Positions 52,066 through 55,352 of a DNA stretch of 64,000 nucleotides are shown here, one piece after another (the first letter of the stretch is position 1; each line of letters opens with the position of its first letter). This DNA is from Burkholderia pyrrocinia (GTDB lineage Bacteria > Pseudomonadota > Gammaproteobacteria > Burkholderiales > Burkholderiaceae): assembly GCF_018417535.1 (NCBI RefSeq), contig NZ_CP070977.1, forward strand, positions 2,418,001-2,482,000. Direction: 5' to 3'. Position numbers and translations under genes: made by a program. The notes below the pieces were generated by a model. That model had not been told where the DNA came from and did no database searches. It worked only from the letters and a program-made list of their open reading frames with translations.

Positions 52066-52497
52066 TCATTCAACAATACGTTTAAAACTGTTGTAGTGGT
52101 CGCCCGTGTAATAACAGTTGTCGATCCGGCGCAATGGCCCGCCACAGACGATCCGGCGCGCGCCGCGATTGCGGGCACGCGGCGTCGGCACCGTGTACTC
52201 ATGGTAGTAGCCGCGCTTCGCCTTCGGCAGGATCCGCTCGCGGTTGCCGAACACGACGCCGTCTTTCTCGTACGGATAGGGGCCGCCGGCGCCGATCAGG
52301 CCCAGCGTGGTCACGGCCTCGCGCGGAAGACCGGCGGTCGGGATCGTATCGAGCCCGCTCGCGGCCACGTCGGCCGAAACGGCCTCCCGTGCGTAAGCGG
52401 CGGAAACCAGACTGCCCGTCGGCGTGCCGACGATACCCATCGCGAACATCGCGAAGACGGACGCGAGCGCGCCGTTGCGGAGCCACTTGCGTGCCAT
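52066..52497 (-). CDS. Secreted barnase-type guanyl-specific ribonuclease
   Basis: The 143-residue precursor has a signal peptide (MARKWLRNGA, hydrophobic to about 30, AYA cut near 36). The mature part resembles the microbial N1/T1 RNase family. YYHEYTVPTP gives a general-base Glu (E100), RGARRIVCGG gives Arg (111 or 114), and YYTGDHYNSF gives the acid His (H134); these match the barnase Glu-Arg-His triad. C118 and C128 could form a disulfide. It is followed directly by its barstar partner. It could act in RNA scavenging or in competition; the sequence does not say which. Confidence 0.88.
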   Translation of the reverse strand: MARKWLRNGALASVFAMFAMGIVGTPTGSLVSAAYAREAVSADVAASGLDTIPTAGLPREAVTTLGLIGAGGPYPYEKDGVVFGNRERILPKAKRGYYHEYTVPTPRARNRGARRIVCGGPLRRIDNCYYTGDHYNSFKRIVE

Positions 52498-52674
52498 GAA
52501 CCAGGGTTCCCGCTGTTAAATCAAGTAGTTGACGACCAACAAAGGCGTTAGCGTAGCGTTATTGGCCGCGCGAATCAATGTCCGTTTGGGAATCGAAAGC
52601 CCGACGACGCGCGGATTTGCGTATTTTTTACCGAAATCACACTACATTTATCTTACATAGGATAAAATACGACC
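52498..52674. other. Intergenic, AT-rich promoter region upstream of the RNA candidate
   Basis: There is no gene here. An AT-rich stretch at about 52618-52670 holds a TAAAAT at 52663-52668, a good -10 for rightward transcription starting near 52675. The expected -35 region (52640-52645) is not a consensus match. The leftward RNase promoter must also lie here, but I could not point to it. Confidence 0.5.
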
Positions 52675-52809
52675 GGCATCTCTCGCATGGCAAGACCCTG
52701 CCTCCTTGCCACGCTCGCTACCCGGAGTGGAGAGATGCTGCTGTTGCTTTGAGGGAAGCGCGTTTGCGCCCTACCCGACGGCGTGCCCATTGCGGGCACG
52801 CCTCTTTTT
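52675..52809 (+). ncRNA. Candidate small structured RNA (~135 nt)
   Basis: A -10 element (TAAAAT, 52663-52668) is followed by a structured segment that ends in an intrinsic terminator. GCATCTCTC (52676-52684) pairs perfectly with GAGAGATGC (52730-52738). Nested inside, GGCAAG (52689-52694) pairs with CTTGCC (52705-52710), and GCGC-GTTT-GCGC forms a third small stem near 52760. A five-codon frame MLLLL begins at 52735, with its start codon inside the closing stem. I could not match it to 6S, SRP, tmRNA or a riboswitch class I know. The region also lacks any protein gene on either strand. Confidence 0.6.
52780..52809 (+). terminator. Intrinsic terminator of the small RNA candidate
   Basis: GGCGTGCCC and GGGCACGCC form a perfect 9-bp stem with an ATTGC loop, followed by TCTTTTT on the plus strand. 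No plus-strand protein gene precedes it, so it must end a short RNA. Confidence 0.88.
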
Positions 52810-52874
52810 GCTTTTGTTTACAATTTCGCCCGACGCGCCACGCCGGTTCGACCGGCCTGGCGCGTTCGTTTTTC

Positions 52875-55175
52875 TCAGCGCGCGGCGTTCACGTCGGCGA
52901 CCAGCAGCGCCGCCATGTTGACGATCCGGCGAACGGTCGCCGATTCGGTCAGCACGTGTACCGGCTGGGCCGCGCCCAGCAGGATCGGCCCGATCGCGAT
53001 GTTGTTGCCGGCGGCCGTCTTCAGCAGGTTGTACGAGATGTTCGCCGCGTCGATGTTCGGCAGGACCAGCAGGTTCGCGTCGCCTTCCAGCGTCGATTCC
53101 GGCAGGATTTCCTTGCGCAGCGCCGCGTCGAGCGCGACATCGCCGTGCATCTCGCCATCGACCTTCAACTCCGGCGCGCGCTCTTGCAGGATCGCGAGCG
53201 TATCGCGCATCTTCTGCGCCGAAGGCGCGTTGCTCGTGCCGAAATTCGAGTGCGACAACAGCGCGACCTTCGGCTCGATGCCGAAGCGACGCACTTCTTC
53301 CGCGGCCATGATCGTGATCTCGGCCAGTTGCTCCGGGGTCGGATCGACGTTCACGTGCGTGTCGACGAGGAAAATCTGGCGGCCCGGCAGCACGAGGCCG
53401 TTCATCGCCGCGTACACGCTGCAGCCGGGGCGCTTGCCGATCACCTGGTCGATGAAGTGCAGGTGGCGGTGCGTGGTGCTGATCGTGCCGCAGATCATCC
53501 CGTCCGCCTCGCCCCGCTTCACCAGCATCGCGCCGATCAGCGTCGTGCGGCGGCGCATCTCGACGCGCGCGAGCTGCTCGCTGATGCCCTTGCGCGCCAT
53601 CAGCTTGTGGTACGTCTGCCAGAAGTCGCGGTAGCGCTCGTCGTGCTCGGTGTTGACGACCGTGAAGTCGACGCCCGGATTCAGCCGCAGGCCGTAGCGC
53701 TGGATACGGTGCTCGATCACGCTCGGACGGCCAATCAGGATCGGCGTCGCGAGCTTTTCGTCGACGATGATCTGAACGGCGCGCAACACGCGCTCTTCTT
53801 CGCCTTCCGCGAATACAACGCGCTTCTTCTCCGCCGGCGCGCTGCGCGCGAGCTGGAAGATCGGCTTCATCGTCGTGCCGCTGTGATACACGAACTGCTG
53901 GAGATGGACGCGGTACGCCTCCATGTCCTCGATCGGGCGCGTCGCGACACCGCCGTCCATCGCGGCCTGCGCGACGGCCGGCGCGATCTTCACGATCAGG
54001 CGCGGATCGAACGGCTTCGGAATCAGGTATTCGGGCCCGAACGACAGGTCCTGGATGCCGTACGCGGTCGCGACGATGTCGCTCTGCTCGTGCTGCGCAA
54101 GCTCGGCGATCGCATTGACGGCGGCGATCTCCATTTCACGCGTGATCGTCGTCGCGCCGACGTCGAGCGCGCCGCGGAAGATGAACGGGAAGCACAGGAC
54201 GTTGTTGACCTGGTTCGGGTAGTCGGTGCGGCCCGTGGCCAGCACCGCGTCCGGGCGCACTTCGAGTGCGAGTTCCGGCAGGATTTCCGGCGTCGGATTC
54301 GCGAGCGCGAGGATCAGCGGGCGCTCGGCCATGCCCTTCACCATGTCCTGCTTCAGCACGCCCGCGGCCGACAGGCCGAGGAAGATGTCCGCGCCGTCGA
54401 TCACTTCGGCCAGCGTGCGCGCTTCGGTTTCGCGTGCGAAACGCTCCTTGTCCGGGTCCATCAGTTCGGTGCGGCCCTTGTAGACCACGCCGGCCAGGTC
54501 GGTCACCAGGATGTTCTCGATCGGCAGGCCGATGTCGACCAGCAGGTCGAGGCACGCGAGCGCGGCCGCGCCCGCGCCGGACGCGACGAGCTTCACCTTC
54601 TTGATGTCCTTGCCGACGACCTTCAGGCCGTTCGTGACAGCCGCGGCCACGACGATCGCGGTGCCGTGCTGGTCGTCGTGAAACACCGGGATCTTCATCC
54701 GCTTGCGCGCTTCGCGCTCGACGATGAAGCAGTCCGGCGCCTTGATGTCTTCCAGGTTGATCCCGCCGAAGGTCGGCTCCAGCGCGGCGATCACGTCGAC
54801 GAGCTTGTGCGGATCCGACTCGTTCAGCTCGATGTCGAACACGTCGATGCCGGCAAACTTCTTGAACAGTACGGCCTTGCCTTCCATCACCGGCTTCGAC
54901 GCGAGCGGGCCGATGTTGCCGAGACCGAGCACCGCCGTGCCGTTCGTGACGACGCCGACCAGGTTGCTGCGCGCGGTGAAGCGCGCCGCGTTGAGCGGGT
55001 TCTCGACGATCTCCTCGCACGCATACGCCACGCCCGGCGAATACGCGAGCGCGAGGTCGCGCTGGTTGATCATCTGCTTGGTCGGGGCGATCGCGATCTT
55101 CCCGGGGGTCGGGAATTCGTGATAATCGAGCGCGGCTTCGCGGAGCTTGGCTTTGGAAGAGGCTTGGGTGGACAT
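52875..55175 (-). CDS. maeB: NADP-dependent malic enzyme, MaeB type
   Basis: This is a 766-residue two-domain protein. The N-terminal malic-enzyme domain, about 1-430, has [12 protein letters not shown], the [15 protein letters not shown] segment, [13 protein letters not shown] with metal ligands, and the Rossmann loop [12 protein letters not shown]. The C-terminal half is a phosphotransacetylase-like domain (about 440-766, starting [22 protein letters not shown]), usually regulatory in MaeB. It decarboxylates malate to pyruvate with NADPH formation. The ATG at 55175 is the start. It is divergent from thiL. Confidence 0.96.
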
Positions 55176-55352
55176 GTGTCTCGTGACGTGCGGATTAGAA
55201 TAACTGTTCGACGGCATTGTAGCGCCAATCGAACGCCGCCAGACCGGCGATTCGGGTGCAACAGCCGCGACAAAAATGGGCCGAACGATGCAGGAACGCC
55301 GCCGTTCGCCTCGTACAATGCCGTTCCCTCAACCGTATCGGATCCGCCCGCC

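Follow-up and report, generated by a model that had tools for sequence, protein, structure and literature searches.

A predicted small RNA family of Burkholderiaceae with an anti-Shine-Dalgarno loop, encoded in the intergenic segment that separates maeB from the gene of a barnase-type RNase

Introduction

In the Burkholderia pyrrocinia DNA analysed here (a stretch of 64,000 nucleotides, hereafter the window) the gene of a barnase-type RNase (52066..52497, minus strand; Pfam PF00545, 2.2e-24) and maeB, encoding an NADP-dependent malic enzyme (52875..55217, minus strand; NF009501, 1448 bits), enclose an intergenic segment, of which the former is the divergent and the latter the convergent neighbour. 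A preliminary description had placed an unassigned small RNA on the plus strand of this segment, and its position, with the RNase gene on one side and the 3' end of maeB on the other, was borne out. The question arises whether a genuine RNA is encoded here, whether it belongs to any known family and what its function could be. According to a 2024 review (PMC10987360), a function has been characterised for very few small RNAs (sRNAs) of the Burkholderia cepacia complex. By annotation alone, the counterpart address in B. cenocepacia J2315 is between BCAL3394, described as a 'putative exported ribonuclease' (PMC11054960), and BCAL3395, a malic enzyme at complement 3719319-3721676 (PMC3596321, PMC4603805); a second malic enzyme of that strain is BCAL0205 (PMC3862766).

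Results and Discussion

The transcription unit

A -10 element, TAAAAT, is present on the plus strand at 52663..52668, as the preliminary description had stated, and it fits the consensus TAnAAT reported for B. cenocepacia (PMC4603805); placed from this box, the 5' end would be expected at about 52675-52676. The strong intrinsic terminator with its U tract (52780..52809, plus strand) could likewise be confirmed and was found by the terminator scan: its stem occupies 52780-52802 and the T run reaches 52809. As modelled, the sRNA covers 52673..52809 on the plus strand; it is single-copy in its own genome and is matched by the model R1 (built from homologues, see below) with 161.8 bits, the window sequence itself being among R1's own 52 rows. 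The sigma-70 scan gave no plus-strand site, hence there is no canonical -35 box, and the terminator scan alone was at chance level (2 found vs 1.9 expected). The case is carried by conservation and not by these scans.

On the 3' side of the terminator, the AT-rich segment 52810-52830, without obvious role, is conserved at 0.91 among Burkholderia. Before the end of maeB a GC-rich inverted repeat followed by TTTTT (52831-52875, plus strand) was spotted by eye; it is absent from the terminator scan output, and the surrounding stretch is poorly conserved (0.74 identity).

Predicted fold and covariation

The predicted fold consists of a three-way junction and two 3' hairpins. The closing stem P1, a perfect nine-base-pair helix which was already recognized in the preliminary description, pairs GCATCTCTC (52676-52684) with GAGAGATGC (52730-52738) on the plus strand and can be extended by two pairs outward. 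The hairpins P2 (52688..52711) and P3 (52712..52729) are enclosed by it, the former containing the nested stem seen earlier (TGGCAAG 52688-52694 with CTTGCCA 52705-52711), and P4 (52753..52776) stands 5' of the terminator, all on the plus strand. With a fold energy of -64.3 kcal/mol the RNA was more stable than all of 200 dinucleotide shuffles (-48.0 +/- 3.9 kcal/mol; z -4.17, 0/200 as good). For six divergent members folded singly, z lay between -1.94 and -5.29.

Mean identity to the window was 0.90 for the RNA vs 0.89 for the RNase-side stretch 52498-52640; raw identity is therefore not distinctive for the RNA, and it is covariation that carries the argument. In the alignment A1, which comprises 52 Burkholderia sequences and was not fitted to the model, 97.7% of the cells pair and both-sided changes occur at 8 of the 39 pairs, compared with 2.3 in shuffles (0/500 shuffles reach 8). 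The alignment A3 comprises 49 of 92 loci including other genera; for it the Burkholderia rows were thinned to 27 of 52, and L113-L128, L130 and L131, all low-scoring, were omitted. Being aligned to the model, it favours the model structure; both-sided changes were found at 29 of its 39 pairs vs 16.9 in shuffles, and both-sided cells numbered 223 vs 55.8 in shuffles and at most 45 in slid versions.

The closing stem does covary among relatives, with both-sided changes at 3/11 pairs in A1 and 10/11 in A3; the corresponding values are 3/7 and 7/7 for P2, and 0/5 and 5/5 for P3. In P4, 93% of the cells are paired and 4 of 7 pairs change on both sides in A3, where its inner pairs have 9-15 gapped rows, and the terminator stem is paired in 100% of the A3 cells. 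Covariation supports P1, P2 and P3, and to a lesser extent P4 and the terminator. We consider it very probable that a genuine conserved RNA is encoded here; its predicted fold is supported by compensatory changes. For evidence from sequence alone the RNA is unusually well supported.

Distribution and synteny

By blastn the RNA was found in 52 of 101 genomes, all from one genus (Burkholderia), and R1 was built from these 52 sequences. R1 matched 105 of 398 genomes of the family: 44 in five other genera and 61 of Burkholderia, the latter being a count of the matching genomes listed, given apart from the genus total sampled. Out of the 61 Burkholderia genomes searched by blastn, 59 match, 52 by blastn and 7 more by R1, and two (G014, G051) gave no match by either. 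In the order sample R1 matched 3 of 399, all three within Burkholderiaceae. A pattern scan of named genomes returned 28 records, 26 of them Burkholderia and the remaining two Myxococcales and Pelagerythrobacter.

Both neighbours are kept in 52/52 original Burkholderia loci. Forty further model-matched loci were taken, nine from Burkholderia and 31 from the other genera (a single locus per genome, covering 31 of the 44 genomes matched there). In 37 of these the RNA is again flanked by the RNase gene and maeB, the barstar gene lying farther out, which gives 89/92 overall. This order is not shared by L130, L131 and L096, the last being a second copy in G030. Since L131 and L130 are the sole R1 matches of the genera g50 and g64, respectively, and are not syntenic, the well-supported range is Burkholderia together with g53, g60 and g65; these two are probably false matches.

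The mini-ORF

The preliminary description had attached importance to a five-codon frame (52735..52752, plus strand) sequestered by the closing stem. In the window sequence an ATG at 52735 indeed opens Met-Leu-Leu-Leu-Leu-stop. This frame is kept in 6 of 52 sequences; the same stretch has another short stop in 3/52, a later stop in 3/52 and no stop in 38/52, and in L036 and L039 the ATG is replaced by GTG. The frame is not conserved and is probably incidental. What stood of the earlier proposal, in view of the covariation and the lack of an Rfam family, was that an sRNA of no assigned family has a -10 element and a terminator of its own; the sequestered mini-ORF found no support. The same counts make it extremely improbable that this is a dual-function or leader-peptide RNA, in which the mini-ORF would be translated and gated by the stem, although an AUG with an upstream GGAG exists in the window sequence. 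Against a leader peptide it also speaks that the downstream maeB lies on the other strand, so that attenuation would have no object.

The UGCCUCC loop

The conserved feature is a loop which the preliminary description did not mention. The word UGCCUCC in P2 (52699-52705, plus strand), the last C of which closes the stem, is complementary to Shine-Dalgarno sequences; it is kept in 51 of 52 A1 loci and 47 of 49 A3 loci, and it is constant while the stem underneath varies. At least five of its letters are unpaired in 43/49 predicted folds and fewer than five in 6/49; L111, one of the six divergent members folded singly, has the word paired in its minimum-energy structure. The conserved unpaired seed complementary to ribosome sites that is expected of a trans-acting, Hfq-dependent sRNA is seen in the predicted folds of most of these 49 chosen loci. 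Outside A3, in the weaker-scoring g60 loci L113-L128, UGCCUCC was present in 2/16 and missing in 14/16. These g60 loci are syntenic and have kept the terminator half, and often the upstream palindrome described below, with the 5' half rewritten.

The upstream palindrome

A palindrome, TTTATC-N8-GATAAA (52647..52666, plus strand), overlaps the -10 box and is a putative operator; this is its sole exact copy in the genome. Of 89 loci, 83 have at least one copy with at most 2/12 mismatches in the 120 nt preceding the RNA, whereas 0.5 would be expected from mononucleotide shuffles. Matched half-site changes (TTTAGC/GCTAAA) occur in L092, L113, L117, L118 and L127, and in three loci the palindrome is doubled. 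The overlap with the -10 region holds for the 52 A1 loci; in others, among them L094, L095, L100 and L111 of Burkholderia, the palindrome stands about 20 nt farther upstream. Such a placement might be that of a regulator site, and a regulator bound there would set the transcription of the RNA. Among the promoter and terminator elements of a trans-acting sRNA gene, the terminator, the -10 element and the palindrome are conserved and the -35 box is absent. Owing to the fixed genomic address and the sole exact copy of the palindrome, regulator and targets are directly searchable.

Three one-mismatch palindrome sites elsewhere in the genome look unrelated to the RNA. Two of them, nearly identical to each other, are on contig C3 with about 700 bp between them (1501-1520 of L162 and of L163), the former with TetR-like and OsmC-like frames nearby (named by eye). 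The second copy in G030 (L096, 2958-3079, minus strand), which is not syntenic, is predicted to form hairpins much like those of the RNA, and its loop reads UGCCUC; the palindrome was absent from the upstream stretch inspected.

Relation to known RNA families

Rfam models gave no match at gathering score across the 64-kb window, in agreement with the earlier statements that the RNA is unassigned to a known family and is not 6S RNA, SRP RNA, tmRNA or a riboswitch. The 6S RNA of B. cenocepacia is ncS17 at BCAL2667/2668 (PMC4603805), and this identity is ruled out both by the Rfam model and by the locus. The near-misses below gathering (group II D1-D4, RefA9, ncS025 and P24; E 0.036-9.1) were taken as chance. 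From its sequence the RNA is a newly predicted sRNA family with an anti-Shine-Dalgarno loop and no Rfam family at cut-off, and it would be an additional family for Rfam.

One further near-match deserves consideration. The mmgR family (suhB, RF00519, alpha-r8), of which mmgR is an alphaproteobacterial sRNA limiting polyhydroxybutyrate granules, resembles the window RNA in being intergenic and in its C-rich segments and terminator, and the MmgR promoter is likewise reported to have a dyad (PMC8401924). The RF00519 model matched 52739-52817 with 31.8 bits (E 8.5e-5 for 451 bases searched), whereas a search of the own genome, in which 150 of 316 candidates were scored, listed a best match of 21.8 bits; this locus is missing from that list and was probably passed over by the first look of the search. 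L121 gave a weak match in the same place (25.4 bits, E 0.42). The score, however, falls short of the gathering value of 41, and the terminator probably contributes much of it. Furthermore, 11 of 12 homologue loci scanned had no RF00519 match at E<=1, and mmgR is 77 nt long with another core and upstream sequence: its core TTTCCTCCCTA was found in 30/30 mmgR loci and TTTCCTCCCT is absent from the window RNA, while the palindrome is upstream of 0/30 mmgR loci. Assignment to RF00519 by the core UUUCCUCCCUA was also rejected, the window RNA being without UUUCCUCCCU. Betaproteobacterial membership in this family is accordingly very improbable. In G629, from the same order, there is a weak RF00519 match of 35.3 bits.

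The double-hairpin or 'toxic' sRNAs of Betaproteobacteria (RF02278; ncS03, ncS05, ncS27 and ncS62, homologous to Bordetella S17) share with the window RNA the occurrence in Burkholderiales, the CU-rich loops predicted over ribosome sites and the own terminator (PMC5688073, PMC11722255). They differ in having 57-92 nt in B. cenocepacia, two hairpins and other loci; the Bordetella forms are S17L (about 190 nt) and S17S (about 70 nt). RF02278 gave no match at gathering, nor at E<=10 in 52500-52950. The ncS025/NcS25 RNA (RF02869), also a Burkholderia sRNA with a terminator, scored 14 bits against a cut-off of 46 (E 6.2) and was rejected. MtvR, a B. cenocepacia sRNA of nearly equal length (136 nt; PMC4046987), was rejected as well, since its published cloning and Northern oligonucleotides match the window stretch at best in 11/17, 10/20 and 13/22 letters. 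BrrF (ncS63) is a Burkholderia sRNA acting on central metabolism, but it arises by processing of the hemP mRNA, which is encoded elsewhere (PMC7377471).

This locus was not found in the published Burkholderia sRNA descriptions compared, the full supplementary transcript tables being outside their scope here. The 15 sRNAs in Table 1 of PMC5688073 are all positioned elsewhere, the fuller list being 41 transcripts, and the comparison leaves out the 38 B. thailandensis sRNAs given by locus tags in Table 2 of PMC4035088.

Candidate targets and proposed mechanism

Taken together, the locus probably encodes a free-standing, trans-acting regulatory sRNA of Burkholderiaceae that blocks ribosome binding at mRNAs, and it is likely, on sequence grounds, that the RNA acts via pairing of its loop with ribosome sites. 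The loop would pair with GGAGGCA at the Shine-Dalgarno sequence of the target and translation would be blocked; Hfq would bind the U tract, and the RNA is probably Hfq-dependent. For B. cenocepacia, sRNAs have been described whose CU-rich loops would, by prediction, mask ribosome sites (PMC5688073).

In the own genome GGAGGCAG-N(1-9)-ATG gave 29 rows vs 6 for the reversed control; one of the 29 is the opposite strand of the RNA gene and one place is counted as two rows. In G054 the pattern is no commoner than the control (10 vs 10). A single own-genome candidate recurs in G054, with a protein 93.8% identical over 501 residues. Pfam places ECH_1 and 3HCDH_N domains in this protein, and for 500 aa of it the top NCBIfam names were FadJ and FadB subunits, below the full-length cut-offs. 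This FadB/FadJ-type enoyl-CoA hydratase/3-hydroxyacyl-CoA dehydrogenase gene would be the best candidate target, and a separate enoyl-CoA hydratase gene the next; together they would point to acyl-CoA metabolism. The predicted duplex energies were -26.5 (fad-type) and -28.2 kcal/mol (enoyl-CoA hydratase) vs -19.0 to -21.1 at three sites taken for comparison. In the own genome the complement of the extended loop, GCANGGAGGCAGG, has three occurrences, one being the RNA gene and two directly before start codons, namely those of the fad-type gene and of a 55-aa frame.

Of 62 Burkholderia genomes, 52 contain the start-region string of the fad-type gene (at most two mismatches) and 10 lack it, the gene behind the string having been checked in two genomes only. 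GGAGGCAG is unchanged in each string match listed, and three matches carry GGAGGCAGA, one pair shorter. Since GGAGG is expected at many starts, the conservation of this site is no proof of pairing, and selection on ribosome sites alone could preserve part of the target-site pattern. It is a rather unlikely, speculative extension that an sRNA distributed over Burkholderia and neighbouring genera, with a dedicated palindromic operator, would use its anti-Shine-Dalgarno loop to restrain acyl-CoA metabolism (beta-oxidation) as a master brake and would be an independently arisen functional counterpart of alphaproteobacterial MmgR.

The very strong fold and the nearly invariant loop could also be read as those of a sponge or decoy, which would titrate a protein or a ribosome component without pairing with any mRNA; the CCUCC of the loop presumably resembles the 3' end of 16S rRNA. 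For such a loop, however, pairing with ribosome sites is the simplest role, and the two occurrences of the extended complement beyond the RNA gene both lie at start codons, therefore we regard the decoy as improbable.

The neighbouring genes

Beside trans-acting blockage of ribosome sites, a role on the neighbours had to be weighed, either on the mRNA of the divergent toxin-like RNase or on maeB by read-through. The gene order preserved in most loci and the near invariance of the RNase leader itself would be in line with this. Duplexes predicted between the RNA and the leader and start of the RNase mRNA, on the other hand, were no better than those with shuffled leaders in 21/21 chosen loci (z -1.61 to 1.07), a weak test since accessibility was ignored, long multi-branched duplexes were allowed and the start codons were estimated. 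As for maeB, the RNA stops at a strong terminator before this gene; the antisense read-through mentioned in the preliminary description must pass it first and found no support as a function. Regulation of a neighbour is thus hardly probable.

The RNase leader is an observation in its own right. Together with the first codons (52400-52600, minus strand) it is nearly invariant in DNA among 51 Burkholderia. No covarying structure was found in it. A leader anchor around CAGCGGGAA...ATG could be traced in 69 of the 89 loci, also outside Burkholderia, and the third codon positions of the RNase gene are 99.5% identical to the window in the first 20 codons, compared with 86-90% in mid-gene. This invariance suggests that the synthesis of the RNase may be under sequence-specific control.
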